From positions 1-43,564 of the forward strand of contig JAHFDG010000031.1 in NCBI GenBank assembly GCA_023249105.1: a stretch of 43,564 nt of DNA, in the 5' to 3' direction. Origin of the DNA: Candidatus Methanoperedens sp. GTDB lineage: Archaea; Halobacteriota; Methanosarcinia; Methanosarcinales; Methanoperedenaceae. Position numbers and translations under genes: made by a program. Numbering within the stretch: position 1 is the first letter of the stretch; every line of letters begins with the position of its first letter. The notes under the pieces were generated by a model. It made no database searches. It had not been told where the DNA came from and saw only the letters and a program-made list of their open reading frames with translations. This document shows positions 4,250 to 40,515 of the stretch, piece after piece.

Positions 4250-4269
4250 TTCTTCCTTTTTCATTTTTT
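4250..4269 (+). terminator. T-rich tract after the S-layer gene
   Basis: Several short T runs directly follow the S-layer stop and run up to the next start codon. This is a plausible archaeal T-tract terminator. Confidence 0.35.
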
Positions 4270-4974: not shown

Positions 4975-5012
4975 ACTGATTATTTATATCAGGGCGAGAC
5001 ATTTCATATCCA

Positions 5013-6429: not shown

Positions 6430-6450
6430 AAAAAAAAATAGCCATATTAT

Positions 6451-6543: not shown

Positions 6544-6629
6544 TTATCCGCCTCAAGCGACTTCTACTGAAATTAGTCTTATCAAAGTTTTCAATCCTAT
6601 TTAAATTCAAAAAATCCTACAAAATAACT

Positions 6630-7874: not shown

Positions 7875-7875
7875 T

Positions 7876-8376: not shown

Positions 8377-8449
8377 AAAACAATTTCAAGTGGAGCAATT
8401 GATATTTCAGAGATTGGACTAAAGATTCTAATTCTAAAGGAGTCTTAAA

Positions 8450-13963: not shown

Positions 13964-14039
13964 GACCTTTTTAAGGTTATCCAGGAGATCATATTTCAGA
14001 TAAGCTTCAGTGTCCTGTATCAATACGGCAAAAACTACC

Positions 14040-14100
14040 TTGGTTATCTCAAAAATCGAAATATAACGACAAAATTTGCTGGTATATATTATATTATAAT
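14040..14100 (+). promoter_or_regulatory. Variant composite promoter of ahcY
   Basis: A shortened relative of the repeated promoter: aacgacaaaa, TTGCTGG at 14076 and TATAAT at 14095 (19 bases later, the usual spacing). The upstream box reads ttggttatctcaa at 14040 and is 36 rather than 41 bases away. The leader to ahcY at 14214 is about 90 bases. The remaining 250-base gap shows nothing else. Confidence 0.45.
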
Positions 14101-14213
14101 CGATAGTGATTTATGAGTGCCTATGGTGTTAATACTTTTGAAAAATTTGATAGTCACAATAGTGCTATAGCTTGAAAACCATTAACTTATACAAAATTTT
14201 TTATTGAGGAAAT

Positions 14214-16555: not shown

Positions 16556-16626
16556 GATCTGGCCCCTTAATCACAATGTGCAAAAACTTGGGTTTGAGAT
16601 AGCTCTCAGGTTGCTTGACGCTGATT

Positions 16627-16693
16627 TTGCCTATATATTTCGTTTTTCCGGATAAATACGACAAAATTTGCTGATTTATATTATATTATAAAC
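16627..16693 (+). promoter_or_regulatory. Composite promoter of the methyltransferase / MBL operon
   Basis: TTGCC at 16627, gataaatacgacaaaa in the middle, TTGCTGATTT at 16668 (41 bases) and TATAAA at 16687. The methyltransferase ATG at 16727 has a gaggt RBS and a leader of about 12 bases. Confidence 0.65.
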
Positions 16694-16726
16694 AATGGTG
16701 ACTTAGAAAAGGCTGAGGTAAATAGA

Positions 16727-17566
16727 ATGAGCAGTACTAAATTAGATACACCAACTCTTGCAGAAAAATACGACCAGTACTTAGGCGATAGCCAATTTAA
16801 TAATGGGTTAAACCTTATTGAAAAACTCGGAATTGAAACAGGAAATAATGTTCTGGATATAGGCTGCGGGACAGGCAGGCTTGCAGAATATGTGGCTAAA
16901 ACCGTGGGAAAAAAAGGTAAAGTCACAGGCATAGACCCGTCACCGCACAGAATTAAAGTGGCAAGCAGAAAGGGAAAACCATCCTTAAATCTGTCTTTTG
17001 AATTAGGCAATGGCGAGGATTTGAGTAGGTTTAAGAATAAAAGCTTTGACCGTGTCTATCTGAATGCAGTTTTCCATTGGATAGAAAATAAGAGCGCCAC
17101 CCTTGCACAGATACATAGAATACTTAAGCCAGGTGGAAAACTGGGATTGACCTTTACATCTAAAAACATTCAAAAAGCCTTTTCTGCTGACAGGCAGGCA
17201 GTTGACAGGCTGCTAAAAAAGGAGCCATATGCATCCGCGGTAAAATCAGATGAGGAAACTCCGAGGCATCCCATCACGACAGATGAACTTGCATTATTGT
17301 TGATCAATTCAGGATTTGAGGACATTAAACTGGATATCAAACAGAATACCACTTACTATCCCTCAGCTAAGGAATACTTTGAAAAGAGGGAGGCAGGCGG
17401 TCATGGAAATTTTTTGACTAATGTGCCCGAGGAACTGAGGGAGCAGTTTAAAGCTGATTATTCGAAAGAACTTGAGAAAAATAAAACCCCACAGGGGATT
17501 GAATTCACCAACTATTCACAGGTTGCAACCGCTACAAATAACGGATGGAATAACGAAAAATTATGA
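16727..17566 (+). CDS. Class I SAM-dependent methyltransferase, group A1
   Basis: A 279-residue Methyltransf_11-type enzyme. Motif I is NVLDIGCGTGRLAEYVA (about residues 43-59), motif II GIDPSPHRIKVA, and the post-I acidic region FELGNGEDLSRF is followed by RVYLNAVFHWI and the motif RILKPGGKLGLTF. Substrate is unknown. The C-terminal third (SGFEDIKLDIKQNTTYYPSAKEYFEKREAGGHGNFLTNVP) is shared with the paralogues at 20028 and 35774, so it probably holds the substrate pocket. It overlaps the downstream MBL-fold gene by four bases. By eye it is very similar to the copy at 20028. Confidence 0.85.
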   Translation: MSSTKLDTPTLAEKYDQYLGDSQFNNGLNLIEKLGIETGNNVLDIGCGTGRLAEYVAKTVGKKGKVTGIDPSPHRIKVASRKGKPSLNLSFELGNGEDLSRFKNKSFDRVYLNAVFHWIENKSATLAQIHRILKPGGKLGLTFTSKNIQKAFSADRQAVDRLLKKEPYASAVKSDEETPRHPITTDELALLLINSGFEDIKLDIKQNTTYYPSAKEYFEKREAGGHGNFLTNVPEELREQFKADYSKELEKNKTPQGIEFTNYSQVATATNNGWNNEKL

Positions 17567-19928: not shown

Positions 19929-19994
19929 TTGCCGCAATGATATAGTATTTGGACGAAATGGGGCGATAGTTGCTGATTTCTATAATATTATATA
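19929..19994 (+). promoter_or_regulatory. Composite promoter of methyltransferase A2
   Basis: TTGCCGCAA at 19929, ggcgatag then TTGCTGATTT at 19970 (41 bases) and TATATA at 19989. The gene starts at 20028 with a short leader containing gaggtaat. Confidence 0.65.
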
Positions 19995-20027: not shown

Positions 20028-20843
20028 ATGAGCAGTACTGAATTAGATACATCAACTCTTGCAGAGAAATACGACCAGCTTAGCGATAGCCAGTTTGAAA
20101 ACGGGAAATTGCTTATTAAAGAACTCCAGGTAGAGAACGGACACCTTGTACTGGATATAGGCAGCGGGACAGGCAGGCTTGCAGAATATGTGGCTAAAAC
20201 CGTGGGAAAGAAAGGTAAAGTCATCGGTATAGACCCGTCGCCGCATAGAATAAAAGTGGCAAGCAGCAAGGTAAAACCATCCTCAAATCTGTCTTTTGAA
20301 GTAGGCAATGGAGAGGATTTGAGTCGGTTTAAGGAGGAAAGCCTTGACCGCGTCTATCTGAATGCGGTTTTGGGCTGGATAGAAAATAAAGGCACTACCC
20401 TTGCGGAGATACACAGAATACTTAAGCCAGGTGGAAAACTGGGATTAACCTTTACATCTAAAAACATTCAAAAGGCATTTTCTACTGACAGACAGGTAGC
20501 TGATAGGCTGTTAAAAAAGGAGCCATATGCATCTGCGGTTAAATCAGACGATGAAACTCCGAGGCATCCCATCAAGACAGATGAACTTATACTATTGTTG
20601 ATAAATTCAGGATTTAAGGACATTAAACTGGATATCAAAAAGAATACCAGGTACATTCCCACAACTAAGGAATACTTTGATAAGAAAGAGGCAAGCGCCC
20701 ACGGAAATTTTTTGGCAAACATACCTGAGAAACTGAGAGGGCAGTTTAAGTCCGATCTCGAAAAGGAGCTTGAGAAAAATAGAACCCCACAGGGGATTGA
20801 ACTCACCAACTATTCGCTGTTTGCGACAGCCACAAAAAGTTGA
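20028..20843 (+). CDS. Class I SAM-dependent methyltransferase, group A2
   Basis: A 271-residue methyltransferase, the closest relative of the 16727 protein. Shared parts include LAEKYDQ near the start, LVLDIGSGTGRLAEYVAKTVG (motif I), GIDPSPHRIKVASSK (motif II), RILKPGGKLGLTFTSK and the C-terminal SGFKDIKLDIKKNTRY. In motif I the usual G-C-G-T-G is G-S-G-T-G. The segment matching FHWIEN in copy A1 is LGWIEN here, so a residue near the active site differs and the two copies may have different substrates. It has its own composite promoter and appears monocistronic. Confidence 0.85.
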   Translation: MSSTELDTSTLAEKYDQLSDSQFENGKLLIKELQVENGHLVLDIGSGTGRLAEYVAKTVGKKGKVIGIDPSPHRIKVASSKVKPSSNLSFEVGNGEDLSRFKEESLDRVYLNAVLGWIENKGTTLAEIHRILKPGGKLGLTFTSKNIQKAFSTDRQVADRLLKKEPYASAVKSDDETPRHPIKTDELILLLINSGFKDIKLDIKKNTRYIPTTKEYFDKKEASAHGNFLANIPEKLRGQFKSDLEKELEKNRTPQGIELTNYSLFATATKS

Positions 20844-20912: not shown

Positions 20913-20980
20913 TTGCCGCAATGATTCAGAATTTGGAATAAATGTGGCGATAGTTGCTGATTTCTAAGATGATATATATA
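20913..20980 (+). promoter_or_regulatory. Composite promoter of the activator/dehydratase operon
   Basis: TTGCCGCAA at 20913, ggaataaatgtggcgatag, TTGCTGATTT at 20954 (41 bases) and TATATATA at 20973 (19 bases further). The start at 21025 has an aaaggagg RBS in a leader of about 25 bases. Confidence 0.7.
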
Positions 20981-21024: not shown

Positions 21025-21834
21025 ATGACAAAAAAAATAGATAATAATAAACCAGCATTTGCTGGCGTGGATGTAGGCTCTCTAACCGCTAAATCGGTAA
21101 TTGTATTAAACGGTACGATAGCTGGCTACAGTCTTATTCCCACCAGCCTAAACTCAGAACAAAGCGGGCTAACTGCCCTTCAAAAGGCATTAGAGGTAGC
21201 AAAACTCACGCGTGATGACGTGAAATACATAGTTGCTACTGGCTATGGAAGAATTTCAGCCCCTTATGCGAATAAAACGGTAACCGAGATAACCTGTCAT
21301 GGCAGGGGCGCCCATTATCTTCACCCAAACACAAGAACAATAATCGATATGGGTGGACAGGACTGCAAGGCAATTCGCCTGGACAAAGACGGCAACGTTA
21401 CAGACTTTGCCATGAACGATAAGTGCGCGGCAGGTACTGGAAGATTCCTTGAAGTCATGGCGAATGTTTTCAAGGTCAAACTGGATGATCTTGGTCCTTT
21501 AGCTTTAAAGGCGAAAGAAATCGTGCCTATGAGCAGCACATGCACGGTCTTTGCAGAATCTGAGACTGTTTCCCTGCTGGCAAGAGGAGAGAAACCAGAG
21601 AATATCATCAAAGGAATACACCATGCCATTGCCCACAGGGTATCAGGGATGTTTTCGCGCGTAGGTATCGAGAGCGATGTTTTCTTCTCAGGCGGCGTTG
21701 CAAAGAACGTGGGAATGAAAGCAGCACTTGAAGAAGTGCTAAAAGCCAAGATAGTGGCGCCAGAATATGATCCGCAGTTAGTCGGGGCGCTGGGAGCAGC
21801 AGTACTTGCTAAAAACTACGGCTCAAAGGTGTGA
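21025..21834 (+). CDS. ATP-dependent activator of a 2-hydroxyacyl-CoA-dehydratase-type enzyme
   Basis: A 269-residue ASKHA-fold activator (HgdC/FldI/BcrD-like, archerase). The ATP-binding DVGSLTAKSVIV (from residue 16), IDMGGQD (about 107-113) and SGGVAKN are present. C134 (NDKCAAGTGR) and C173 (SSTCTVFAESE) match the two ligands of the intersubunit [4Fe-4S] cluster in HgdC, with the same 39-residue spacing as its Cys127 and Cys166. The homodimer uses ATP hydrolysis to fire a very low-potential electron into the partner enzyme. It is first in an apparent eight-gene operon and four bases from the first partner subunit's preferred ATG. Family assignment is firm. Confidence 0.92.
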   Translation: MTKKIDNNKPAFAGVDVGSLTAKSVIVLNGTIAGYSLIPTSLNSEQSGLTALQKALEVAKLTRDDVKYIVATGYGRISAPYANKTVTEITCHGRGAHYLHPNTRTIIDMGGQDCKAIRLDKDGNVTDFAMNDKCAAGTGRFLEVMANVFKVKLDDLGPLALKAKEIVPMSSTCTVFAESETVSLLARGEKPENIIKGIHHAIAHRVSGMFSRVGIESDVFFSGGVAKNVGMKAALEEVLKAKIVAPEYDPQLVGALGAAVLAKNYGSKV

Positions 21835-21836
21835 AG

Positions 21837-23012
21837 ATGGTACTTGAAACTTTAAAAAAGATAGAAGAAGCTGTCAAGAATAGACCACAGGAACTGGCAG
21901 AAGCAAGAAAAAAAGGAGAGAAGGTTGTTGGATGGTTTAATTACAATATCCCTGAAGAGATCATACATGCCCTGGGATTAATCCCGGTCAGGCTGGGAAC
22001 AGGAGGAAACGACAAGTTAGTTGAGATTGGCAGCAGGTATATTTCTGAAAAAAATTGTGTTTATACAAGAGAGCTTGTAGGGCTTTTTGAACAGAATAAG
22101 GATCCGTATATCATAAATTCAGATCTGGTGGCGATAGATGCTACCTGTTTGCAAACATACAAAGTAGGAGAGCTTATAAAATACTATTTCAAGGTTAACA
22201 CTCTCATTCTTCCAATACCAAGGAATTTCTATCAGCCTGAAGCCCATGAATATTTCGAGAAAGAACTTGAATTTTTCACACAGAAATTGGAAGAATTTGC
22301 TGGAAATAAACTTGATACGAATAAGCTCGCAGAATCCATCAAGCTTTACAAAAATATTAGGAAAGCCGTTAAAGATTTGTACAAGTACCAGGCAGCAGAT
22401 AAATCGCCCATAAAATGGCGGGAGGTTTTTGGTGTGGTACATGCAGGAAATTACCTTGATAGAGAACAATATCTTTCATTGCTGCAGGAACTGCTAAAAG
22501 AGCTGAAAGAAAAGCATGGCAAGCCTGAGATTGGAAGCTTGAACGGGGATGTTCGTATCTTCTTAGCAGGCAGTATAATCCCTCCCAGGGATACAAAGCT
22601 GATAAATATTATCGAGGAGGTTGGAGGCAGGATCGTAGGCGACGATTTATGGTCGGGTCTTAATTCATTTTTGGATCTGAATATAAAAGAACCTTCCATA
22701 AAAGGCGTAGCAGAGGCATATATTAACCGTGTTCCCCACGCTGCGCAGCATTATCCTTTGAGTTTGGAAACAGACAGACGACTCAACAACATGAAGCAAT
22801 TAATCGGTGAGTTCAAGGCGCAGGGTGTAATCTATCATACACTGCGTTTCTGCGATCCATTCACCTTTAATGCTAATGAAACACATGACGTGTTCAAAAA
22901 AGAAGACATACCTTTCCTTGAAATTCATACGGAATATTCAGGGTCTGACGTCGAAGCGATAAGAACAAGGACGGGGGCTTTTCTGGAGCTAATAAAAAAT
23001 AAGAATATTTAG
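21837..23012 (+). CDS. 2-hydroxyacyl-CoA dehydratase / BcrB-like subunit
   Basis: A 391-residue HgdB/BcrB-type iron-sulfur subunit (2-hydroxyglutaryl-CoA dehydratase family). The N-terminal KVVGWFNYNIPEEIIHALGLIPVRL is diagnostic. Three cysteines fit the [4Fe-4S] ligand pattern: C74 (EKNCVYTREL), C104 (DATCLQTYK) and C329 (RFCDPFTF), numbered from ATG 21837. A GTG at 21831, overlapping the activator stop, is an alternative start; ATG 21837 has better spacing from aaaggtg. Known relatives perform ATP-driven radical dehydration or aromatic ring reduction on CoA thioesters. No CoA ligase or CoA-transferase is encoded in the window, so the substrate may not be a CoA ester. Confidence 0.88.
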   Translation: MVLETLKKIEEAVKNRPQELAEARKKGEKVVGWFNYNIPEEIIHALGLIPVRLGTGGNDKLVEIGSRYISEKNCVYTRELVGLFEQNKDPYIINSDLVAIDATCLQTYKVGELIKYYFKVNTLILPIPRNFYQPEAHEYFEKELEFFTQKLEEFAGNKLDTNKLAESIKLYKNIRKAVKDLYKYQAADKSPIKWREVFGVVHAGNYLDREQYLSLLQELLKELKEKHGKPEIGSLNGDVRIFLAGSIIPPRDTKLINIIEEVGGRIVGDDLWSGLNSFLDLNIKEPSIKGVAEAYINRVPHAAQHYPLSLETDRRLNNMKQLIGEFKAQGVIYHTLRFCDPFTFNANETHDVFKKEDIPFLEIHTEYSGSDVEAIRTRTGAFLELIKNKNI

Positions 23013-23022
23013 GAGTATAAAA

Positions 23023-24402
23023 ATGAGTAATAATGGAACACTTAGTTATCCTGAAGAATTGAAACAAAAGTTTCTTGAAACGGAAGACATAAATTACAGA
23101 GATGGCACAATCGTTACAACCTCTGAAATCTGGAAATACGTGACTGATGTGGCACCGAAAAAGTATCCATATGCCTACGATCTTGATTATAATAATAGGC
23201 TTAGACGGTCAGAAGATGTGGAATATTTAAGCGGAATCAAAGTAAATTATATGACACTTAGCCTGAGAGATTTATTACTAAAAGCACATGATAAAGGGAT
23301 ACCTCTCATTCACGTAATAGGTGGACAGATTATGGATGCTTATTATGCAGCGGGTGGGATAGCTTTTAGAAATGCATTAGTAAGTCAGATGTCCAGGAGT
23401 ACACAGGAAGGAGCGAGTCTACGTAAGATAGCTATATATGAACAGGAACTCCTTGAAAAGGGTAACAAAACATTCAGTTATGAGTTATGTGGTCCTGCGC
23501 TAAGGCAACGTGCTAATTTTGATGGGCATATTGTGCCGATTGACCTGATTGCTCCATACCAATGCATGCGCTGCTCGGATCTGGCACGTATGATCGAGTC
23601 GTATCGTGATAAATTCCCAAGCGTTTCTATTGACGTTCCGATAGTAGAATATGAAAATAAAGAATGGGCTGTGGATTATCTTACATCCGGGCTTCGTGGA
23701 CTGACAAAAAAAGTAAGTAACTTATCCGGAAAAAAAATAACTGACAAAGATATCCTTGAGGAAATTAAACTTGAGAATAAAGTGCGTAAAATAGCCAGGG
23801 AGATTCACGATATCTGGTGGTCTGCTAAGGTGCCCCCAACAAATAGTATTGATTTTGGTGAGGTGGCACAACTTGCTATAGATTTTAAGGCAGATCCAGT
23901 GGCAGCTCTTGGAGTTCTCAAGGAAATAAAAGAAGAGGTTAAAGGAAGAGTTAAACACTCAATCAAAGGTAAGGGACTTGCTGACGATCCGGCAAGGCTG
24001 TATATAGTCGGGATGGGTGCAGGAAATCGAGCCCGTATTGATAAAATGGGTGGAGTGATGGTGGGAACTGATCAGGCATGGAGTCCTATAAGTGTTCATG
24101 TTAAAGAAACTGGAGACCCGCATGAAAATATAGCCAGGGCAACGCTTACGCTTCCTTTTGAACAACCTGTCGAGAGGCGTGGAGAGTTGGAGGCTGAACT
24201 ATCTAAAAGATCGAGAGCCGATGGTGTTGTGATTACGCTGGCATGGGGATGCAATTATACGAGCGCATCTGTAAGAGTTATTGCTGATATAATTAAAGAG
24301 CGTACAGGATTGCCCACAAATATATTTGAAACAAATCCCGGTGTGGAAGGAGCGGAGCAGCTTGAAAACCGCATTGAAGCATTCGTAGAGATGCTAAATT
24401 AA
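23023..24402 (+). CDS. 2-hydroxyacyl-CoA dehydratase / BcrC-like large subunit
   Basis: A 459-residue second subunit of the same family, probably paired with the preceding one. Cysteines at C156 (ELCGPALRQR), C181 and C184 (YQCMRCSDLARM) and C410 (LAWGCNYTSASVR) provide cluster ligands; the extra one in a C-x2-C pair is worth noting. The N-terminal 100 residues carry an IWKYVTDVAPKKYPYAYDLDYNN segment and a RDLLLKAHDKGIPLIHVIGGQ helix-strand unit. Together with the activator this makes a complete two-component system like FldIBC or HgdCAB. What it reduces or dehydrates is unknown. It starts ten bases after the previous stop with an aggag RBS. Confidence 0.87.
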   Translation: MSNNGTLSYPEELKQKFLETEDINYRDGTIVTTSEIWKYVTDVAPKKYPYAYDLDYNNRLRRSEDVEYLSGIKVNYMTLSLRDLLLKAHDKGIPLIHVIGGQIMDAYYAAGGIAFRNALVSQMSRSTQEGASLRKIAIYEQELLEKGNKTFSYELCGPALRQRANFDGHIVPIDLIAPYQCMRCSDLARMIESYRDKFPSVSIDVPIVEYENKEWAVDYLTSGLRGLTKKVSNLSGKKITDKDILEEIKLENKVRKIAREIHDIWWSAKVPPTNSIDFGEVAQLAIDFKADPVAALGVLKEIKEEVKGRVKHSIKGKGLADDPARLYIVGMGAGNRARIDKMGGVMVGTDQAWSPISVHVKETGDPHENIARATLTLPFEQPVERRGELEAELSKRSRADGVVITLAWGCNYTSASVRVIADIIKERTGLPTNIFETNPGVEGAEQLENRIEAFVEMLN

Positions 24403-24414
24403 GAGCAAAGGAAT

Positions 24415-25251
24415 ATGGACAAAATAAAATCTGAAAGCGTGAAGAAGAAATTCAAGCTCAAGGACGGTCAGGAGGTGAATAATAACGGTGCAGTATCCAA
24501 TGAAATAGAGGTACTCAACGGCGTTGACCTGAGTATCAGAAACGGTGAGTTCCTTGTAGTGGTTGGACCAAGCGGATGTGGAAAGTCCGTTTTACTTGAT
24601 ATTATAGCCGGATTGACAAACTCCACAAGTGGAAGTGTCTATCTGGACGGCAAAAAGGTCGAAGGAACAAATATCAAGACCGGATATGTATTCCAGCAAT
24701 ATGCACTTTTTCCGTGGAGAAACGCTCTTTCCAATATAGAGTTCGGACTTGAAGCACAAAATGTACCCAGAGAAGAACGGACAAAGATCGCAAAAAAGCT
24801 GCTCTCTCTATTCGGGCTTTCAGATTTTTGGGACAGGTTTCCCTATCAACTATCCGGTGGTATGCAGCAGAGGGTAGCAATAGCCAGAGCCCTTGCGACA
24901 AATCCAGAGGTATTATTGATGGATGAACCTTTTGCAGCTCTGGATGCCCAGACCCGTGAGATTCTCCAGAACGAGCTTCTAAGAATCTGGGAGGGAACTC
25001 GCACAACTGTGGTATTTGTAACTCACAGCATCGACGAGGCAGTATTTCTTGCAGACAGGGTCGCTGTTATGACAGCCAGACCGGGTATTATTAAACAGCT
25101 AATAGAGATTGATCTTCCAAGACCAAGAGATGGGAATATTAGATCAAGTCCTGAATTCGCCGACAACCGGCATAAAGTCTGGAACCTGCTCAAAGGTGAA
25201 GTGATCAAAGCACAGAAGGACTGGGAGCTTGCATCGGTATATGCGAGGTAG
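24415..25251 (+). CDS. ABC importer ATPase, SsuB/TauB-like (set 1)
   Basis: A 278-residue ATPase of the nitrate/sulfonate/taurine importer family. Walker A is GPSGCGKS (51-58), signature YQLSGGMQQRVAIARAL, Walker B VLLMDEPFAALDAQTRE and switch histidine FVTHSIDEAVFLADRV. The first 30 residues form a hydrophilic insertion not seen in the second copy at 38949. It energises the permease and binding protein encoded next. Twelve bases separate it from the dehydratase subunit, so uptake and the enzyme are almost certainly co-expressed. Sulfonate-type substrate is only a family inference. Confidence 0.9.
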   Translation: MDKIKSESVKKKFKLKDGQEVNNNGAVSNEIEVLNGVDLSIRNGEFLVVVGPSGCGKSVLLDIIAGLTNSTSGSVYLDGKKVEGTNIKTGYVFQQYALFPWRNALSNIEFGLEAQNVPREERTKIAKKLLSLFGLSDFWDRFPYQLSGGMQQRVAIARALATNPEVLLMDEPFAALDAQTREILQNELLRIWEGTRTTVVFVTHSIDEAVFLADRVAVMTARPGIIKQLIEIDLPRPRDGNIRSSPEFADNRHKVWNLLKGEVIKAQKDWELASVYAR

Positions 25252-25283
25252 AAGTAAAAAAATATAATAAGGAGATATATATT

Positions 25284-26135
25284 ATGTTAGGAGAGATATT
25301 TGGTTCTAAAGATGAATTTAAACTACGATTTATCGAAATCGACAGTATAACAAAGAATTTGAAAAAAATAAGAGAAAGGTCGCATGGTCTCTGGCTCGTC
25401 TTTGCATTTTTTGCGGTATGGGAGGCTTTACCCAGATTAGGTATTATCGATCCTATCTTCCTGCCGACTTTTTCTGAGACTATTATTACATTAATCAATC
25501 TCGCTATGTCAGGTAAACTGTTTGTGCATATATGGGCAAGTTTGCAAAGATCTATGATAGGGTTTGTACTGGCGGTCTTAGTAGCAGTACCCCTGGGCTT
25601 CTTGATGGGTTGGTACAATAGTTTTGAGCGATATACCGACCTGTTTGTACAGAGCCTGAGAAATACTTCCACGTTTGCCCTGCTTCCCATATTTCTCCTA
25701 TTTTTGGGGCTTGGTGAAGCATCAAAAATAGCTATAGTATTCTATGGCGCTACATGGCATCTCCTGATAAACACTATAAGTGGGGTGAAAAACGTTGACC
25801 CTATTTATATAAAGGCTGCAAAATCAATGGGAATTTCGGATAAGGATCTATTCAGGAAAATCATACTTCCTGCAAGCACGCCGTCCATAGTTTCTGGTGC
25901 AAGGCTGGGGGCAAAGACAGCCCTGCTGGTAGTGATCGCAGCCGAGATGATCGGAGCCAAGTCAGGGCTTGGCTACTTTGTCCAGAATGCACAGTTCAAT
26001 TTTATGATACCAGAGATGTTTGCAGGAATACTTACACTATCAATACTGGGGCTTATTCTTAACTATCTTTTAGTCTGGATTGAAAAGAAAGCAACCTACT
26101 GGAAGGGAGATATTGATCAAGCGATACTTGGATAA
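25284..26135 (+). CDS. ABC importer permease, SsuC/TauC-like (set 1)
   Basis: A 283-residue permease with about six membrane helices and the binding-protein-dependent EAA loop (YIKAAKSMGISDKDLFRKIILPASTPSIVSGARLG). The N-terminal helix is LWLVFAFFAVWEALPRLGII, and the sequence closes ILNYLLVWIEKKATYWKG. RBS aaggagat precedes ATG 25284. It probably forms the homodimeric channel. A decayed copy lies at 29083-29462, and a second intact paralogue at 39706. The direct repeats gtttgca at 25540-25546 and 26018-26024 in this gene are the points at which the decayed copy lost 478 bases. Confidence 0.9.
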   Translation: MLGEIFGSKDEFKLRFIEIDSITKNLKKIRERSHGLWLVFAFFAVWEALPRLGIIDPIFLPTFSETIITLINLAMSGKLFVHIWASLQRSMIGFVLAVLVAVPLGFLMGWYNSFERYTDLFVQSLRNTSTFALLPIFLLFLGLGEASKIAIVFYGATWHLLINTISGVKNVDPIYIKAAKSMGISDKDLFRKIILPASTPSIVSGARLGAKTALLVVIAAEMIGAKSGLGYFVQNAQFNFMIPEMFAGILTLSILGLILNYLLVWIEKKATYWKGDIDQAILG

Positions 26136-26152
26136 AAAATGAGGTAATGAAG

Positions 26153-27178
26153 ATGAAAAATAACATAAAAGTTTTTTCAATAGCGATTGTCGCTGTATTG
26201 ATCGTTGGAGCAGGATTGTTTTTAACAAGAGAAGAGAAACCGAAGCAAGACGCAATTGCTATCCGAATATTTGATGATTCTCAAACCGTTCGTGATTGGG
26301 AAATCATTAAAAAATTGACGGGTGAAGATATTCTTGAAGAAGAAGGTGTAAAGCTTGAGTTGATATCCTCCTTCCAAAGCACAGGCGGTACAGATACCAT
26401 GCAGGCTACCCTTGCAAACAACATCGATTATGCAAGTGGATTTACTACAATCTGGATTAATGCAAATGCTGCAGGAGGAAAGGTTAAAGCAGTTCTGGGA
26501 AGTGCTCGAACAAGTGCAGAAGACCCTAACAGTTTCTGGACAGTACTGAATGACAGTAAAATTTACAGTATAGAAGATCTTAAAGGTAAGAAACTGGCAG
26601 TAAATGTTTTGGGAGCTCGTTCCGAGTATATAATAAAAGGATTTCTAAAACAGAAGGGTATGTCCATAGATCAGGTCGAACTGATTGTAGTACCCAATTC
26701 CCAACAAGAACAAATGTTAAGAAGCAAACAGGTGGACGCAGCAGATCTTGGTAAAAAACAATATCTTGCAGCAAAAAAGAAGGGAGGAATCAGGGTTATA
26801 GTTACTGATTATGACATGTTGAAAAAAGATTATGTTAAAAGCTATGGTGGGTTCAGGGAAGATTTCCTAAAGGAACATCCTGATACTGTAAGAAGATTTG
26901 TTACAGCGTATGAGAAGTCTGGACGTTTGGTATGGGAAGAATACCAAAAAGATCCTCAAAAAATTAAAAAAATAGCCTCAGAAATTGTTACAGAAAAGGG
27001 TGGAAATCCGGAGGTTCAGGATTATACGCCAACATGGTCGCCTTCAGCTCCATTTATCACAGATGAAAATGTACAGTTGTGGATTGACTTGTTTGTTGAT
27101 GATGGAATATTGAAGCCAGGTCAGCTAAAACCTTCGGATGTTTATACAAATGAGTTTAACTCATATTATAAAAAATAA
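26153..27178 (+). CDS. Substrate-binding protein, SsuA/TauA/NMT1-like (set 1)
   Basis: A 341-residue periplasmic-type binding protein. An N-terminal membrane anchor (VFSIAIVAVLIVGAGLFL) without a lipobox cysteine is followed by an NMT1/SsuA-like fold (DYASGFTTIWINANAAGGKVKAVLGSA; LKGKKLAVNVLGARSEYIIKGFLKQKG; EQMLRSKQVDAADLG). It ends PSDVYTNEFNSYYKK, as in the homologue at 29480. The ATG at 26153, with gaggta six bases away, matches the start of that homologue; ATG 26147 is too close to the RBS. It captures the substrate outside the cell for the ATPase and permease upstream. Ligand is unknown. Confidence 0.88.
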   Translation: MKNNIKVFSIAIVAVLIVGAGLFLTREEKPKQDAIAIRIFDDSQTVRDWEIIKKLTGEDILEEEGVKLELISSFQSTGGTDTMQATLANNIDYASGFTTIWINANAAGGKVKAVLGSARTSAEDPNSFWTVLNDSKIYSIEDLKGKKLAVNVLGARSEYIIKGFLKQKGMSIDQVELIVVPNSQQEQMLRSKQVDAADLGKKQYLAAKKKGGIRVIVTDYDMLKKDYVKSYGGFREDFLKEHPDTVRRFVTAYEKSGRLVWEEYQKDPQKIKKIASEIVTEKGGNPEVQDYTPTWSPSAPFITDENVQLWIDLFVDDGILKPGQLKPSDVYTNEFNSYYKK

Positions 27179-27192
27179 GGCAGGAGAATTAA

Positions 27193-28068
27193 ATGACAAA
27201 TTTCATAACAGAAAAATTTGAGGAAACTGATGAATACGATAAAACGAAAGATCTAACATCAGAAACATTTGAGGACGCTGATGCATATGATAAGCGCAGC
27301 GACCAACAGTATCACTGTGGACTACAATTGATCAGAGAACTTGGAATAAAACATGGAAGCACTGTACTGGATATAGGTGCTGGTCCTGGCAGACTTGCGC
27401 TACATGTAGCCGGGTTAATTGGCAAAGAAGGACTTTGTTTCGGTATTGACCGGTCACACGAACGTATCAAGATCGCAAAAAGAAGGGCTGAGAGCCGGCA
27501 AATCTCTAACCTTGCTTTTGCTACCGGAAATGGTACCAATCTAAGCCGTTTTATTGATGGTTTTTTTGATACAGTGTATCTGAATAGTGCATTTCACTGG
27601 TTCAATGAACAAAATAGATTATTGCAAGAGGTCCACAGGGTTTTAAAACCAGGCGGACGCCTCGGATTCACATCCCAGATATCAAATTATCCAGAACGTG
27701 ATCTCAGGGAAATCGGAGATTCATTTTTGAAAAAGAAAAGAGTTGATACCAGCGCCTTAAGTCAAAGTAGTTATTCGGTAACCATTGATGAAGCGAGGGA
27801 ACTTCTTGACCAGGCAGGATTTCGTGTGCTGCGCTTAGAACTCAGACCGTCAATAGAGGATCTTGAGACGCCAGAAGATGCGATCAATGACATATTGAAA
27901 AAACGATATAAAAATTTATCTTCCTCACAAAAAGAGGAACTCAGAAACGAACTTATAAAGGAATCAAAAAAAATCGAAATAGATGGAAAAATCAAGGTTG
28001 TTAGAGACAAACTCATTGCAATAGCTGAAAAAGGAGATACTTCCAAGGCAATTGCGGCTGGAAGTTGA
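27193..28068 (+). CDS. Class I SAM-dependent methyltransferase, group B1
   Basis: A 291-residue methyltransferase with motif I STVLDIGAGPGRLALHVAGLIG, motif II GIDRSHERIKIAKRRAE and VYLNSAFHWFNEQNRLLQEVHRVLKPGGRLGFTS. It belongs to a second local family with 28090 and 30791 (shared SDQQYxCGLxLxxEL before motif I). The N-terminus contains an internal duplication: FEETDEYDK is followed by FEDADAYDK about 20 residues later, so it is longer than its relatives. It is the seventh gene of the operon, 14 bases after the binding protein. Substrate is unknown; position implies a role in the imported compound's metabolism. Confidence 0.85.
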   Translation: MTNFITEKFEETDEYDKTKDLTSETFEDADAYDKRSDQQYHCGLQLIRELGIKHGSTVLDIGAGPGRLALHVAGLIGKEGLCFGIDRSHERIKIAKRRAESRQISNLAFATGNGTNLSRFIDGFFDTVYLNSAFHWFNEQNRLLQEVHRVLKPGGRLGFTSQISNYPERDLREIGDSFLKKKRVDTSALSQSSYSVTIDEARELLDQAGFRVLRLELRPSIEDLETPEDAINDILKKRYKNLSSSQKEELRNELIKESKKIEIDGKIKVVRDKLIAIAEKGDTSKAIAAGS

Positions 28069-28089
28069 ACACGAAAAGGAGGAATCAAA

Positions 28090-28977
28090 TTGACAAATTT
28101 TAAAACAGAAACATTTGAGGAAGCTGATGAATACGATAATCACAGTGACCAACAGTACAATTGCGGATTACATCTAACCAAAGAGCTTGAAATAAAACAG
28201 CGGAGCACTGTATTGGATATAGGTGCTGGTACAGGCAGATTAGCGCTGCATGTCGCTGGATTAATTGGAAAAGATGGATCATATTTCGGCATCGATCTCT
28301 CTCCGGAACGTATCAATATCGCAAAAAAGAAGGCGAAGGAGCTAAGAGCCTCCAATCTTTCTTTTGAAATCGGTGATGGCACAGACCTGAGTCGTCTTAA
28401 GGACGGGTTTTTTGATGCAGTGTATATGAACAGCGTATTTCACCATATCAAGGATAAAAAGAAAGTATTTGATGAGTGCCACAGGGTTTTAAAACCGGGT
28501 GGACGCCTCGGATTCACATCCCAGGTAACAAATATTCCGAGCGATAATGTCAGGGAAATATCAAAGACGATTTTGAAAAATAGAGGATATAATCTCGGTG
28601 TCTCAAACCATGATAATTATTCGGGAACTGTTGATGAAAATAGTAGAAGGAGGTATTGGCATGGGATATATTATGTCTCACATTATGATAATTATCCGAT
28701 AACTGTTGATGAAGCGAGGAGGTATCTTGAGCAGACAGGATTTATTGTACAAAACATAGATGTCAGGCAAAATAGGGTCAATTTTGCATCATCTGAAGAT
28801 GTGGTTAATTCCATAATAAATAGGGATAATCGAAATTTTCTAAGAGATGTACCCTCAAAAAAGCATTCCGAAATAAGAAATGAACTCATAACCGAATTTA
28901 AAAAAATAGAAACAAAAGAGGGCATTAATTTCGTTAATCACAAACTCTATGTAATAGCTGAAAAAAAAAGTAACTAA
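28090..28977 (+). CDS. Class I SAM-dependent methyltransferase, group B2
   Basis: A 295-residue methyltransferase (motif I TVLDIGAGTGRLALHVAGLIG; motif II GIDLSPERINIAKKKAKEL; CHRVLKPGGRLGFTSQV). It starts at a TTG (28090) after the strong RBS aggagga; no ATG fits. An internal repeat near residues 175-215 (SNHDNYSGTVDE and, about 30 residues later, SHYDNYPITVDEARR) suggests a local duplication that lengthened the substrate region compared with 27193 and 30791. Last gene of the operon. It overlaps the TusA remnant by one base. Confidence 0.83.
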   Translation: MTNFKTETFEEADEYDNHSDQQYNCGLHLTKELEIKQRSTVLDIGAGTGRLALHVAGLIGKDGSYFGIDLSPERINIAKKKAKELRASNLSFEIGDGTDLSRLKDGFFDAVYMNSVFHHIKDKKKVFDECHRVLKPGGRLGFTSQVTNIPSDNVREISKTILKNRGYNLGVSNHDNYSGTVDENSRRRYWHGIYYVSHYDNYPITVDEARRYLEQTGFIVQNIDVRQNRVNFASSEDVVNSIINRDNRNFLRDVPSKKHSEIRNELITEFKKIETKEGINFVNHKLYVIAEKKSN

Positions 28978-29082: not shown

Positions 29083-29462
29083 GTGTCAAGAGAGAAATTT
29101 GGTTATAAAGATGGATTTAAACTACGATTTATCGGAATCGGTAATATTACAAAGCGATTTGAGCATTATAAGGAAGTGATCTTCTGGTCGTGGAGGCTCT
29201 TACTTATCTTTGCATTTTTTGCTGCATGGGAGGCTTTACCCGGAATAGGTATTATCGATCAAATCTTCCTACCGAATTTCTCTGAGACCATTATAACATT
29301 GATAAATCTCACTGTATCAGGTAAACTGCTGTGCATATTGGAGCAAGTTTGCAGGAATACTTACACTAAATACTGGAGCATGCGATGAACTATATTTTGG
29401 TCTGGATTGAAAAGAAAGCAACTTACTGGAAGGGAGAAATTGATAATGCGATTCTTAGATAA
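29083..29462 (+). pseudogene. ABC permease pseudogene with 478-base internal deletion
   Basis: The first 85 codons follow the permease at 25284 closely (FGYKDGFKLRFIGIGNITK; FAFFAAWEALPGIGIIDQIFLPNFSETIITLINL), starting at a GTG. The sequence then jumps at gtttgca (29347-29353) from the position equal to 25540 to that equal to 26018, removing the channel helices and the EAA loop. The last codons (LVWIEKKATYWKGEIDNAILR, in another frame) match the end of the intact gene and stop at 29460-29462. A frameshift makes the ORF stop at 29388. It is not functional. Confidence 0.9.
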
Positions 29463-29479
29463 GAAATGAGGTAATAAAG

Positions 29480-30505
29480 ATGAATAATAACAAAAAATTT
29501 TTTTCAATAGCGATTGTCGTTGTATTGATCGTTGGATTTGGATTGTTTTTAACAAGAGAAGAGAAACCAAAGGAAGAAGCAGTTGCTATCAGGATGTTGG
29601 ATAGCTCCAGTACCGTTAATAGTTGGGAAATTGTAAAAAAATTGACGGGCAGAGATATTCTTGAGGAAGAGGGCGTAAAGCTTGAATTGATATCCAATTT
29701 ACCATCCCTGGGCGGATCGCAAAACATACAGGCTCTTCTTGCAAACAACATCGATCGTGGAAGTGGAGCTACTTTAATCTGGGTGAATGCAATTGCAGCA
29801 GGGGGAAAGATTAGGGCGGTTGTAGGATCTGCTCGAACAACCAAAGAACGTCCCTGGGGATACTGGTCAGTACTTGAAGACAGCAACATTTCCAGTGTTG
29901 AGGATTTTAAAGATAAGAAAATAGCCGTTGGTGGATTGGGAACTTATATGGATACCTATACAATAGGATTTTTAAAAGAGAAGGGTTTGTCCAAAAGTCA
30001 GGTTCAGATAGTCGTAGTGCCCAGCGACCAACAAGAACAAATGCTACGAAGCAAACAGGTGGATATCGCAGTACTTTCTGAACGCTATTTTGTTGCAGCA
30101 AAAAAAAGGGGAGGAATTAAAGCCATTGTTTCTGATTATGACCTGTTAAAAAAAGAAACCGTCATAACCTTTCAGGGATTCAGGGAAGATTTCATAACGA
30201 AACATCCCGATACTATAAGGAGATATGTTACAGCTTTTGAGAAATCAGAACGTTTAGTATGGGAAGAATTCCAAAAAGATCCGGAAAGGGTCAGGAAAGC
30301 AGCATCCGAGATCATAAAAGAAAAGGAGGGAAATCCGGGGGCTCAGATTTATTACCCCGGATGGTCGCCATCATCTCCTTTTATCAAAGATGAAGATGTG
30401 CAGATATATATTGATTGGTTTGTTGACGATGGGATACTGAAACCAAGACAACTAAAGCCTTCAGATGTTTATACAAATGAGTTTAACTCTTATTATAAAA
30501 AATAA
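29480..30505 (+). CDS. Substrate-binding protein, SsuA/TauA-like, orphan paralogue
   Basis: A 341-residue binding protein of the same length and design as that at 26153 (N-terminal anchor VLIVGFGLFLTREEKPKEE; EQMLRSKQVDIAVLS; PSDVYTNEFNSYYKK), but with many substitutions in the ligand-binding loops (SLGGSQNIQALLANNIDRGSGATLIWVN instead of TGGTDTMQATLANNIDYASGFTTIWIN). The frame is intact although the permease upstream is destroyed and no ATPase is adjacent. It may deliver a different ligand to the set 1 permease or be on the way to loss. RBS gaggtaataaag precedes the ATG. Confidence 0.85.
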   Translation: MNNNKKFFSIAIVVVLIVGFGLFLTREEKPKEEAVAIRMLDSSSTVNSWEIVKKLTGRDILEEEGVKLELISNLPSLGGSQNIQALLANNIDRGSGATLIWVNAIAAGGKIRAVVGSARTTKERPWGYWSVLEDSNISSVEDFKDKKIAVGGLGTYMDTYTIGFLKEKGLSKSQVQIVVVPSDQQEQMLRSKQVDIAVLSERYFVAAKKRGGIKAIVSDYDLLKKETVITFQGFREDFITKHPDTIRRYVTAFEKSERLVWEEFQKDPERVRKAASEIIKEKEGNPGAQIYYPGWSPSSPFIKDEDVQIYIDWFVDDGILKPRQLKPSDVYTNEFNSYYKK

Positions 30506-30590
30506 GGCTGAGGGGCTAAAAGCCTCTAATCTCTTTTTTGAAGTCGAGGATGGCACTGACCTGAGTCGTTTTAAGGATTGGGTTTTTTAG
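30504..30590 (+). pseudogene. Methyltransferase fragment
   Basis: One frame reads KAEGLKASNLFFEVEDGTDLSRFKDWVF and a TAG, matching the middle of the group B methyltransferases (KAKELRASNLSFEIGDGTDLSRLKDGFF at 28090). It starts inside the stop of the binding protein. In the intact module a whole methyltransferase follows the binding protein; here a deletion, possibly at a short aaggc repeat, left only this piece. Confidence 0.8.
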
Positions 30591-30605
30591 CGTTCATGCT
30601 TTCAT

Positions 30606-30672
30606 TTGCCACAATTAAGCGGAATTTGGAAGAAATGGGGCGATAGTTGCTCATTTCTAAAGTGTGATATAT
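30606..30672 (+). promoter_or_regulatory. Composite promoter of methyltransferase B3
   Basis: TTGCCACAA at 30606, ggcgatag then TTGCTCATTT at 30647 (41 bases; one change) and GATATATG at 30666. The following leader to 30791 is unusually long (about 95 bases). It contains a stretch around 30703-30731 resembling the end of a group A methyltransferase gene, and a hairpin. Confidence 0.55.
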
Positions 30673-30738
30673 GTGCCAGAGCATCTTCAAACTGCAACAA
30701 GACCTGACCTCGAAAAGGAATGGAGCTTGTCAAGAAAT

Positions 30739-30764
30739 CCACATATCTTACGGATATTTTGTGG
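30739..30764 (+). other. Inverted repeat in the 5' leader of methyltransferase B3
   Basis: CCAC-ATATC, five-base loop, GATAT and then GTGG after a three-base bulge. It lies 26 bases before the methyltransferase start and could form a leader hairpin or be a regulator site. Confidence 0.35.
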
Positions 30765-30790
30765 AAAAATAAATTTAAGCGAGGTAGAAA

Positions 30791-31588
30791 ATGGAAAATT
30801 TATCATTAGAAACAATCGAAGCTGCTCAGGAATACGATGACAGCAGTGACCAACAATACCACTGCGGACTACAGTTGATCAGAGAACTTGGACTAAAACA
30901 GGGAAGCGCTGTACTGGATATAGGTACTGGTCCTGGCAGATTAGCGTTGCATGTAGCCAGGATAATTGGCAATGAAGGGCTGATTTACGGCATCGAGCGG
31001 TCCCCTGGGCGTATCAATATTGCAAAAAGAAGAGCTGAGAGCCAGCAGGCCTCTAACGCTGTTTTTGTTACTGGAGATGGTTACGATCTAAGCCGTTTTA
31101 ATGATAATTTTTTTGATACAGTGTATCTGAACAGCGTAATTCACTGGTTCAAGAATAAAAAAACATTATTACAGGAGGTCAACAGGGTTTTAAAACCAGG
31201 TGGAACACTCGGATTCACATCACAGATAACAAATTATCCCAAGCGTGATCTCAGAGAAATCGGAGATTCACTTTTGAAAAAGAAAGGATATTTTGACAGT
31301 ACTTTAATTACTGTTAGTTATCCAGTAACTGATGAAGAGGTTCGAAAACTTCTGGAACAGACGGGATTTGTTGTGCGCAAAACAGAACTCAGGCCGTCAG
31401 TAGAAGATTATAAAACGCCAGAAGATGCGATAAATAACCTATTTAAAAAACGATATAAAAATTTATCTCCCTCAAGACAAGATGAAATCAGAACTGAACT
31501 TATAAAAGAATCCAAAAAAATACAAATCGATGGAAAAATCAAGGATGTTAGAGACAAACTCTATGTAATAGCTGAAAAAAAAGTGTGA
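30791..31588 (+). CDS. Class I SAM-dependent methyltransferase, group B3
   Basis: A 265-residue methyltransferase with motif I AVLDIGTGPGRLALHVARIIG, motif II GIERSPGRINIAKRRAESQ and VYLNSVIHWFKNKKTLLQEVNRVLKPGGTLGFTS. It lacks the N-terminal duplication of B1 and the mid-protein insertion of B2, so it probably represents the ancestral form. The C-terminal helix (LSPSRQDEIRTELIKESKKIQIDGKIKDVRDKLYVIAE) is almost shared with B1. It appears monocistronic: its own composite promoter is upstream and a strong hairpin followed by T-rich sequence is 16 bases downstream. Confidence 0.85.
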   Translation: MENLSLETIEAAQEYDDSSDQQYHCGLQLIRELGLKQGSAVLDIGTGPGRLALHVARIIGNEGLIYGIERSPGRINIAKRRAESQQASNAVFVTGDGYDLSRFNDNFFDTVYLNSVIHWFKNKKTLLQEVNRVLKPGGTLGFTSQITNYPKRDLREIGDSLLKKKGYFDSTLITVSYPVTDEEVRKLLEQTGFVVRKTELRPSVEDYKTPEDAINNLFKKRYKNLSPSRQDEIRTELIKESKKIQIDGKIKDVRDKLYVIAEKKV

Positions 31589-37705: not shown

Positions 37706-37772
37706 TTGCCTCAATCCTTCGCTTTTCCGAATAAACACGACAACCCTTGCTGAATTCTCTACTTCTATATAT
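37706..37772 (+). promoter_or_regulatory. Composite promoter of the radical SAM operon
   Basis: TTGCCTCAA begins two bases after the transporter stop at 37706. TTGCTGAATT follows at 37747 (41 bases) and TATATAT at 37766. The radical SAM ATG at 37795 is 29 bases from the TATA element, so the mRNA is probably leaderless. Confidence 0.65.
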
Positions 37773-37794
37773 CATCCATTCCTTCCAGAGCTTG

Positions 37795-38952
37795 ATGAGT
37801 AGATATCAGGTAAACGGAAGGAAGCTCAGCGCACTGGAAATCAAAGCAGAGCTACTCGTAGACGGCGTAAACATAGATGCCTCTGCACTCCATGGCGTTG
37901 GAGAAAAATACAAGGAGCAAATTCATGGTGTCTTTGACTTTGACCTTGAATCTCATGAGCACCAGAAGCTTCCTGCCGAAATCATATTTGAGGATATGAT
38001 GCTCGTTCCATTCAAGAAGAACAGTGCTTCGCCATTTATCGTAAAAAAGAACAACGGTTCACTCTTTCTTGAATATAATGGCAAATATGTTCTTGATATA
38101 AAATATAACAACAGGCCAGGGTTCTATAATAATGAGACTTCAGATGGCATTCTCATGTCCCAAATAGGGCAGAACGTGTCAAAAGACGCTCTTATTGTAG
38201 CGTACAGCAACTATTGCGATTATTATAAAACACATGAAGAATGCTGGTTCTGCAATCTTGTGCATACCAAGAAAACATATAACGGCGATGTAATAGGTCT
38301 GAAAATGCCTTCACATATAGGAGAAACTTTTCAGGCAGCGATCGAAGAAGGCGTTGTCGATAAGCTTCTCCTGACCGGAGGAATGCATCCGAACGGAAAG
38401 GAGCATGAGTATTATATCGAGGTTGCAAAAGAGGTAAAAGAGCATACAGGAGATGACCATGTTCCCGGAACTGTGGTCATATCTGCTCCGACTGACCTTA
38501 AGAAGATCGAAAAATTGAAAAAAGCGGGATTTGATTCCGTGGCTTTTAATCTTGAAGTCTGGGACAGGAACCTGTTCGCAGGCATTTGCCCGGGAAAAGC
38601 AAGAACGATTGGCTGGGAGAATTACCTGAAAGCGCTGGAATATGCAGGCAGGATTTTCGAACATGGAAAAGTTCGGTCTATGTTTGTTTCGGGTCTTGAA
38701 TCAAAGGACTCGTTCCTGAAAGGTGCAGAATATCTTGCATCAAAGAATGTTCTTGCATTCCCAATGCCATGGACACCCAATCCAGGTTCAAAGCTGGAGG
38801 GGCACAGGACGCCTCAACCCTCATGGCATCTTGAGCTTAGCAGGAAGCTTGTTGATATCTGGCAAAAATACGATTACTCGGTTGACCATTTGAAAGAGCT
38901 TCCCCTATCGCGGAATTATCTGTATTTTGACGAGATGGCTGGAAGAACATGA
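37795..38952 (+). CDS. Radical SAM protein with C-X8-C-X2-C cluster motif
   Basis: A 385-residue radical SAM-type protein. C141, C150 and C153 (NYCDYYKTHEECWFCNLV) give C-X8-C-X2-C instead of the canonical C-X3-C-X2-C; the aromatic before the last cysteine is typical. LLLTGGMHPNG, GTVVISAP and AFNLEVWDRNLFAGICPGK resemble the SAM-binding strands of the BioB/ThiH-like barrel. An N-terminal 120-residue domain precedes the barrel. The frame extends to a TTG at 37747 inside the promoter box, but the ATG at 37795 is the plausible leaderless start. It overlaps the ABC ATPase by four bases. Product is unknown. Confidence 0.82.
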   Translation: MSRYQVNGRKLSALEIKAELLVDGVNIDASALHGVGEKYKEQIHGVFDFDLESHEHQKLPAEIIFEDMMLVPFKKNSASPFIVKKNNGSLFLEYNGKYVLDIKYNNRPGFYNNETSDGILMSQIGQNVSKDALIVAYSNYCDYYKTHEECWFCNLVHTKKTYNGDVIGLKMPSHIGETFQAAIEEGVVDKLLLTGGMHPNGKEHEYYIEVAKEVKEHTGDDHVPGTVVISAPTDLKKIEKLKKAGFDSVAFNLEVWDRNLFAGICPGKARTIGWENYLKALEYAGRIFEHGKVRSMFVSGLESKDSFLKGAEYLASKNVLAFPMPWTPNPGSKLEGHRTPQPSWHLELSRKLVDIWQKYDYSVDHLKELPLSRNYLYFDEMAGRT

Positions 38953-39743
38953 TAAAAGTAAAGGCAGAGGACATAACGAAGGTCTTCCATAGCAAAAATG
39001 GAAATACCGGGACAAATGGCTGTGTGGAAGCCCTGGGTGGAATAAACCTTGAGATCAGAACCGGTGAATTCCTCGCCATAGTTGGTCCAAGCGGCTGCGG
39101 GAAATCAACATTCCTTGAGATACTGGGCGGTCTGATAAAACCATCCTGCGGAAGCATCTATATAGATGGTAAAGCGGTGAGTGGCCCGAACCATGATCGG
39201 GGTATTGTCTTTCAGGGTTATGCGCTGTTCCCATGGCGGAATGTAACAGAGAACATAGCCTACGGGCTTGAAGAAAAAGGTGTCCCGAAGAAAACAAGGA
39301 ATGAAATTTGCAGAAAATACATTTCTCTTGTCGGTCTTTCCGGCTTTGAAAATCATTATCCGTATCAATTAAGTGGCGGGATGAAGCAGCGTGTAGCGAT
39401 AGCAAGGGCTCTTGCTTATGATCCTGATATTTTGTTGATGGATGAACCCTTCGCCGCCCTTGATGCCCAGACAAGGGATACGCTGCAAGGTGAGGTTTTG
39501 CGTATCTGGGAAGAAACAAGAAAAACAGTGTTATTTGTCACTCATAATATAGAAGAAGCTGTTTTTCTGGCTGACAGGATAGCTGTCATGTCAGTGCGTC
39601 CGGGTATAATAAAAAGGATAATCGACATTCCACTATCAAGACCCAGGTTTGAGGAATTCAGAACATCTCAGGATTTTATTAAGCTGAGGCAGGAGGTGGG
39701 GTCAATTGTCAGGGAAGAAGCAAAATCTGCAACGAACTCTTAG
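38949..39743 (+). CDS. ABC importer ATPase, SsuB/TauB-like (set 2)
   Basis: A 264-residue ATPase closely related to 24415: GPSGCGKST Walker A, GYALFPWRNVTENIAYG, YQLSGGMKQRVAIARALAYDP, LLMDEPFAALDAQTRD, FVTHNIEEAVFLADRIAVMSVRPGIIKRIIDI. It lacks the N-terminal insertion of set 1. Translationally coupled to the radical SAM protein (ATGA overlap) and overlapping the permease by 38 bases, so the import system and the radical SAM enzyme are one unit. The substrate is probably similar to that of set 1. Confidence 0.9.
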   Translation: MIKVKAEDITKVFHSKNGNTGTNGCVEALGGINLEIRTGEFLAIVGPSGCGKSTFLEILGGLIKPSCGSIYIDGKAVSGPNHDRGIVFQGYALFPWRNVTENIAYGLEEKGVPKKTRNEICRKYISLVGLSGFENHYPYQLSGGMKQRVAIARALAYDPDILLMDEPFAALDAQTRDTLQGEVLRIWEETRKTVLFVTHNIEEAVFLADRIAVMSVRPGIIKRIIDIPLSRPRFEEFRTSQDFIKLRQEVGSIVREEAKSATNS

Positions 39744-40485: not shown

Positions 40486-40515
40486 GGATGAAATAAAAAT
40501 AAACAGGTGATAAAA

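Follow-up and report, generated by a model that had tools for sequence, protein, structure and literature searches.

What does an enzyme of the 2-hydroxyacyl-CoA dehydratase (HGD) family act on when it is encoded beside a dedicated importer and no enzyme for CoA activation? This question is raised by an operon at positions 21025 to 28977 (plus strand) of contig JAHFDG010000031.1 from Candidatus Methanoperedens sp.; the window analyzed here is this one entire contig of 43,564 bases, part of a 3.28-Mb genome. The HGD family is known for dehydrating and dearomatizing CoA esters. The operon in the window probably serves under sulfur limitation, by importing an organosulfur compound (a sulfonate or a thioether) and cleaving its C-S bond reductively at the expense of ATP. 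A role in sulfur scavenging is supported by independent lines of evidence, and reductive C-S cleavage appears to be the most likely chemistry because of the mechanism of the family and a parallel with methylthio-alkane reductase (Mar); the substrate, the bond that is cleaved, and expression under sulfur limitation are what we infer.

The operon comprises eight open reading frames (ORFs) at the coordinates and with the family assignments given by an earlier sequence-only reading of the window, which had called it an operon. ACT (21025 to 21834) is an ATP-dependent activator of the BadF/HgdC type (TIGR00241, 281 bits against a cutoff of 125), with its Cys residues in NDKCAAGTG and SSTCTVFA motifs. 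It overlaps by 4 bases with HGDa (21831 to 23012), a HadC/BzdN-like HGD-D subunit, if the latter starts at GTG, or is followed by a 2-base gap if HGDa starts at an ATG two codons further in; the other intergenic gaps are 10 to 32 bases. HGDb (23023 to 24402; 459 amino acids) is a divergent HGD-D subunit of the catalytic type. The two subunits match PF06050 and the activator matches PF01869 (275.6, 146.7, and 228.1 bits, each above the cutoff), placing them in the HGD-D/BadF-activator superfamily. Next come an SsuB/TauB/SaoA-like ABC transporter ATPase (24415 to 25251), which is sulfur poor with 4 sulfur residues in 277, a TauC/SsuC/SaoP-like permease (25284 to 26135), and an SsuA/NMT1-like binding protein with 5 internal Met and no Cys (26147 to 27178). 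Two accessory S-adenosylmethionine (AdoMet)-dependent methyltransferases, with no and one internal Met, close the operon (27193 to 28068 and 28090 to 28977). The operon is the sole site of the HGDa/HGDb pair in the host genome, which encodes one further HGD-D protein on another contig (C43). As also noted in that reading, neither a CoA ligase nor a CoA-transferase was detected in the window, and none was found among the recurrent neighbors of 32 related loci. An Rfam scan of the window returned only one tRNA.

The subunits differ from the characterized members of their family. Both score below the curated cutoffs of the CoA-ester equivalogs, and in a tree each is separate from the double-cubane proteins (DCCP) and from HadC/BzdN/MbdN, with moderate support and long branches for the reference rows; the enzyme is thus placed outside the known CoA-ester clades, as had been predicted. 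In class I benzoyl-CoA reductase, the ligands of the BzdN double cubane are Cys36, Cys73, Cys100, Cys263, Cys293, and Cys327, and those of the catalytic BzdO cluster are Cys95, Cys128, and Cys380 (PMC11971306). HGDa contains 2 internal Met and a total of three Cys, all at cluster-ligand positions, which in a phmmer alignment match BzdN Cys73, Cys100, and Cys327; equivalents of residues 36, 263, and 293 are missing. Because Cys is kept only at the former positions, HGDa is predicted to hold ligands for a single [4Fe-4S] cluster, and a double cubane is unlikely. HGDb residues C156, C184, and C410 are invariant across 30 homologs, align with HadB Cys positions, and make up a putative three-Cys [4Fe-4S] site like that of the catalytic subunit of BzdNO and HadBC. 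An AlphaFold model of HGDb (pLDDT, 85; pTM, 0.89) has structural matches to HadB, DCCP, BzdO, and MbdO with TM scores to target of 0.71 to 0.80, HadB and BzdO being closest, and from this structure HGDb is predicted to be the catalytic subunit. A GSC motif found in nearly all HGDb homologs is GMGAG in the window protein (24007 to 24021, residues about 329 to 333). In several lineages (loci L047, L054, L055, and L056), a FAD_binding_2 flavoprotein, a possible redox partner, is encoded near HGDb or the importer.

These comparisons bear on two alternatives that involve no sulfur chemistry. The enzyme could be a 2-hydroxyacyl-CoA dehydratase or benzoyl-CoA-type reductase with its CoA ligase encoded elsewhere, as the HadB/BzdO-like fold and ligand pattern would allow; the subcutoff scores, the separate position in the tree, the lack of a CoA-activating gene among recurrent neighbors, and the nearly constant adjacency of the importer make this very unlikely. 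Alternatively, it could have no role in sulfur metabolism and either reduce sulfur-free small molecules, as a DCCP-like enzyme, or serve in electron transfer. The double-cubane family (NF040772) is indeed the best family match of HGDa (221 bits, below the cutoff of 350), and DCCP is among the top fold matches of HGDb, whose own score against that family is 79 bits and likewise below the cutoff. HGDa nevertheless lacks the three Cys of the distal cluster, and with them the six-Cys signature of an [8Fe-9S] cluster, and groups apart from DCCP; this alternative also leaves the sulfur-related neighbors and the sulfur-poor composition described below unexplained, and we regard it as improbable.

The six-gene core (activator, HGDa, HGDb, ATPase, permease, and binding protein) is kept in many phyla, and the operon is therefore more than a chance arrangement. 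Beyond the genus, 32 loci with most or all of the core genes were found in a collection of genome contigs by searching with an alignment of nine HGDb sequences; the window HGDb alone as the query gave none. These loci belong to Chlorobiaceae, Margulisbacteria, Bacillota, Proteobacteria, Spirochaetes, Bathyarchaeota, and Methanoperedenaceae, and the cluster is also present in a complete genome of 2,922,917 bases from the phylum of the host (G270). No such locus was found in viral contigs, and plasmids gave only distant partial matches. Presence is patchy in the groups sampled, namely, the phylum (393 genomes), the class of G466 (251 genomes), and the orders of G458 and G462 (58 and 10 genomes, respectively). 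The conservation of gene order on which the sequence-only reading depended is thus real, and the activator/dehydratase pair does occur near SsuA-like genes in other archaea, for example, in Bathyarchaeota, genomes of the same genus, and G270. In genomes of the same genus and one other genus of the family, HGDb shares 41 to 46% identity with the window protein, whereas the same relatives are far more alike in HGDa (73 to 77%), intact activators (85 to 87%), and the ATPase (83 to 91%). At several loci, a single activator gene is accompanied by two or three copies of HGDb and by several binding protein genes. Genes for the large and small subunits of an aconitase family protein (6465 to 8376 in the window) are syntenic with the HGD operon in genomes G003 and G017.

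The importer almost always adjoins the enzyme genes among these relatives, which bears out the proposal that a dedicated importer is joined to an ATP-driven HGD-type enzyme. In Chlorobiaceae and Margulisbacteria, an additional outer membrane porin is encoded beside the binding protein, which fits a role in import. The window binding protein matches the SsuA structure 3uif. The best NCBIfam matches of the ATPase and permease are SaoA and SaoP, and DsrE genes lie nearby, features that would suit a variant of the Sao (selenocysteine-assisted organometal) system; the scores are far below the cutoffs (253 bits against 360 and 155 bits against 295), the window showed no MerB-like lyase, and this assignment is extremely improbable. 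Downstream of the operon and on the same strand lie a truncated permease copy of 101 amino acids (29083 to 29388) and a second SsuA-like binding protein with 3 Met and no Cys (29480 to 30505). Together with a methyltransferase gene that follows, they resemble a decayed duplicate of the importer module (29083 to 31588), and the binding protein probably derives from a duplicated module. A second importer module on the plus strand (37747 to 41562) encodes a variant radical-SAM protein (NF045502, 407 bits), an ATPase, a permease, and an SsuA-like binding protein; similar radical-SAM and importer sets were found in G021, G780, and L061.

The amino acid composition of the encoded proteins is the first line of evidence for a sulfur role. 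Proteins of sulfur acquisition are known for a low content of Met and Cys (PMC7661421; PMC11022551), and apart from HGDb and the activator, the proteins of the cluster are depleted in this way. HGDa has 0 to 4 internal Met in 39 of 40 proteins (median, one) and 3 or 4 Cys in 37 of 40, a pattern that holds in distant phyla, whereas 10 to 12 Met occur in DCCP-like homologs of the host's genus; the median Met content is 0.26% in the 40 proteins versus 2.9% in 12 homologs (P = 1e-7). Binding proteins often contain 0 to 5 sulfur residues per about 340. Sulfur-poor genes (<1.55% sulfur residues) make up 12 of 35 in the window versus 12 of 169 background ORFs from a sample of contigs (P = 7e-5); one background ORF (L142) is an N-masked stretch, so that the true background count is 11 of 168. 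The bottom of the genome distribution includes, from the window, an S-layer protein, DsrE, CbiX, three binding proteins, and five methyltransferases, four of the window's methyltransferases having no internal Met. Among the large ORFs of the background, just one other is nearly Met free: MetY of the host genome (L105, 3161 to 4459, on contig C129), whose 432 residues include one internal Met and no Cys. Ten methyltransferases of the cluster contain 0 to 2.6% sulfur residues versus 2.7 to 6.7% in 15 remote ones (P = 2e-5, the paralogs not being independent). The S-layer protein (2050 to 4245 in the window; 175 to 2325 in L207) is nearly free of Met and Cys, follows three DsrE genes and TusA in G021, and may be a sulfur-sparing envelope isoform.

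A shared promoter element ties several of these genes together. Four copies of the 20-bp element GGCGATAGTTGCTGATTTCT are present in the window, where 0.01 are expected, each followed by a TATA-like box and all on the plus strand: upstream of the HGD operon (20946 to 20965), the S-layer gene (1995 to 2014), the methyltransferase gene at 20028 (19962 to 19981), and, with 1 mismatch, the methyltransferase gene at 30791 (30639 to 30658). It also precedes the HGD operon in sister genomes. With at most 2 mismatches, all 13 matches in the host genome (G000), G003, G017, and G021 lie upstream of genes in these clusters. Three-mismatch variants stand upstream of DsrE/TusA operons in G003, G007, and G021; the remaining three-mismatch matches are likely chance. 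A related element, ACGACAAAATTTGCTG, followed by a TATA-like box, precedes the S-adenosylhomocysteine (AdoHcy) hydrolase gene and the methyltransferase gene at 16727 (upstream regions 13964 to 14213 and 16556 to 16726). Another variant on contig C83 of the host genome (L205, 335 to 353) points off the end of that contig, which may adjoin the window because the window begins with DsrE genes.

Genes of sulfur metabolism form a third line of evidence. Three DsrE genes (62 to 1161) and two TusA genes (1163 to 1345 and 1507 to 1737) occupy the left end of the window on the plus strand. The HGD cluster of G021, a genome of the host's genus, is directly preceded by metY, metX, and a gene that we take to be metW-like. 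A bathyarchaeotal cluster (L047) is flanked by cysK-type, YedF/TusA-like, sulfite/nitrite reductase family, metY, and metX genes, and one of the Bacillota (L054) has metY-type, cysK, cysE, and metA genes as neighbors. In G270, metY-type, MoeB/UbaA-type, and sulfite reductase-like genes lie within the cluster on the same strand; a short JAMM-like ORF there had no NCBIfam match. With PF01053 and NIR_SIR genes counted in whole genomes and the genomes treated as independent, a PF01053 gene is no more than 15 kb away in 4 of the 16 genomes, where 0.48 would be expected (P = 0.0015), and a sulfite reductase family gene in 2, where 0.30 would be expected (P = 0.04). The host genome carries sat-cysH-sir and metYXW by our own reading of the genes, sir having also been found separately.

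Several observations weigh against a role in sulfur scavenging. HGDb and the activator are not sulfur poor, and HGDa of G270 is not depleted in Met. The host genome has neither metY nor a sulfite reductase gene near the operon, and for many relatives (Chlorobiaceae, Paenibacillus, and Ruminiclostridium hungatei), we recognized no sulfur assimilation gene within 10 kb. The binding protein scores 99.3 bits against TIGR01728 (SsuA_fam), short of the cutoff of 163.5. Codivergence of HGDb and the binding protein, seen with 31 pairs (partial Mantel r = 0.35; 0/5,000), disappeared after dereplication to 15 pairs (r = -0.04) and was set aside.

What chemistry would such a system perform? A sister genome, G007, in which HGDb was not found, provides a parallel. 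Its locus L206 (positions 1 to 8612 of that locus, on contig C1) is a Mar-like NifHDK operon with an importer, an MFS transporter, and a sulfur-poor methyltransferase. For the NifH-like and NifD-like proteins, the best match is methylthio-alkane reductase 9FMG (411 versus 280 bits and 206 versus 133 bits, respectively), and variants of the promoter element precede the DsrE/TusA, binding protein, and NifH-like genes, beside the importer and the methyltransferase. The presence of this operon in the regulon without HGDb suggests that an enzyme of a C-S-cleaving type replaces the HGD enzyme in one sister genome. In Thiodictyon (L055), an HGD cluster and a similar NifHD pair are about 7 kb apart. 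The expectation that the substrate is a sulfur compound thus gains support from the neighbors, the composition, the promoter element, and this alternative operon.

In the proposed mechanism, the SsuABC-like importer would bring in a small organic sulfur compound, and ATP hydrolysis by the activator would drive an electron onto the HGDa/HGDb enzyme. HGDb, with its predicted three-Cys [4Fe-4S] site, would then reductively cleave the C-S bond, and the released sulfite, sulfide, or thiol would be passed to the sulfite reductase and the homocysteine/methionine synthesis that the cell already has. In one version, an alkane- or aminosulfonate is reductively desulfonated to sulfite, which sulfite reductase turns into sulfide, an O2-independent counterpart of SsuD and TauD. 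This version is favored by the match of the importer parts to the Tau/Ssu/Sao families, by that of the binding protein to 3uif, and by the sulfite reductase family genes that adjoin the cluster in L047 and lie within it in G270; NMT1/SsuA-type binding proteins accept many other ligands, however, only 2 of 16 genomes have sulfite reductase nearby, and the methyltransferases are left unexplained. We hold it tentatively, as a serious possibility.

A second version gives the methyltransferases a part: the enzyme would cleave a thioether, or a thiol that the coregulated methyltransferases had first S-methylated, into a hydrocarbon and methanethiol (or sulfide). O-Acetylhomoserine sulfhydrylase would carry the product to methionine, and AdoMet synthetase (MAT; 41559) and AdoHcy hydrolase (SAHH; 14214), both encoded in the window, would close the cycle. 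The Mar-like operon in the same place of the G007 regulon, the near neighbor in Thiodictyon, and the promoter element and sulfur-poor composition shared by the methyltransferases speak for it. Besides those in the operon, the window has paralogs at 16727 to 17566 and 30791 to 31588 (each with no internal Met and 1 Cys) and at 20028 to 20843 (271 amino acids, no internal Met, and no Cys; a candidate regulon member), all on the plus strand. The family is, however, absent from the operon in G003, G017, G021, and the 32 genome-contig loci, an importer would be needless for volatile thioethers, and L047 and G270 carry sulfite reductase; this version is somewhat unlikely. Because the family recurs in G270 and, beside the Mar-like operon, in G007, the methyltransferases seem to belong to the same sulfur regulon as accessories outside the core. 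Of the sequence-only reading, the importer, the enzyme outside the CoA clades, the gene order, and the likely sulfur substrate have therefore stood, and methylation of the imported compound as a core step has not.

The known desulfonases SsuD and TauD require O2, and to our knowledge, sulfur acquisition from simple sulfonates by strict anaerobes is largely unexplained so far. Literature searches, which covered few subscription papers, turned up no description of an HGD-type enzyme with an organosulfur substrate. The operon may represent a second, nitrogenase-independent route of anaerobic C-S cleavage, widespread in anaerobes, in which a CoA-free HGD/BCR-type enzyme acts on imported sulfonates or thioethers, with fast-evolving, duplicated HGDb and binding proteins as swappable specificity parts; this broader proposal stands close to an even chance, on the lower side. 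If it is true, sulfur assimilation in archaea (both methanotrophs and methanogens), in green sulfur bacteria, and in anaerobes of the gut would also draw on the HGD family. The cultured carriers R. hungatei and Paenibacillus forsythiae make the sulfur-scavenging reading testable.

The system can be set beside four known ones. It shares with SsuABCDE and TauABCD an NMT1-type ABC importer encoded with a desulfurizing enzyme (here a proposed one), and sulfur-poor proteins, but has an anaerobic, ATP-driven Fe-S enzyme in place of their O2-dependent oxygenases. DCCP and DCCP-R have the same HGD-D fold and ATP-driven activator, and DCCP is the best family match of HGDa, whereas HGDa lacks three of the six double-cubane Cys, forms a predicted heterodimer with the divergent HGDb, and occurs with an importer in a sulfur context. 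BzdNO and HadBC likewise pair two HGD-D subunits, of which the catalytic one has a three-Cys [4Fe-4S] site, and depend on an activator; the operon enzyme falls outside their clade, has a longer HGDb N-terminal part, and is accompanied by a dedicated importer and by no CoA activation genes. The likeness to MarHDK would, if our reading is right, be one of function, namely, ATP-driven low-potential C-S cleavage for sulfur salvage, with a Mar-like operon in the regulon context of a sister genome; Mar itself belongs to an unrelated protein family, with a nitrogenase-like fold and metalloclusters.

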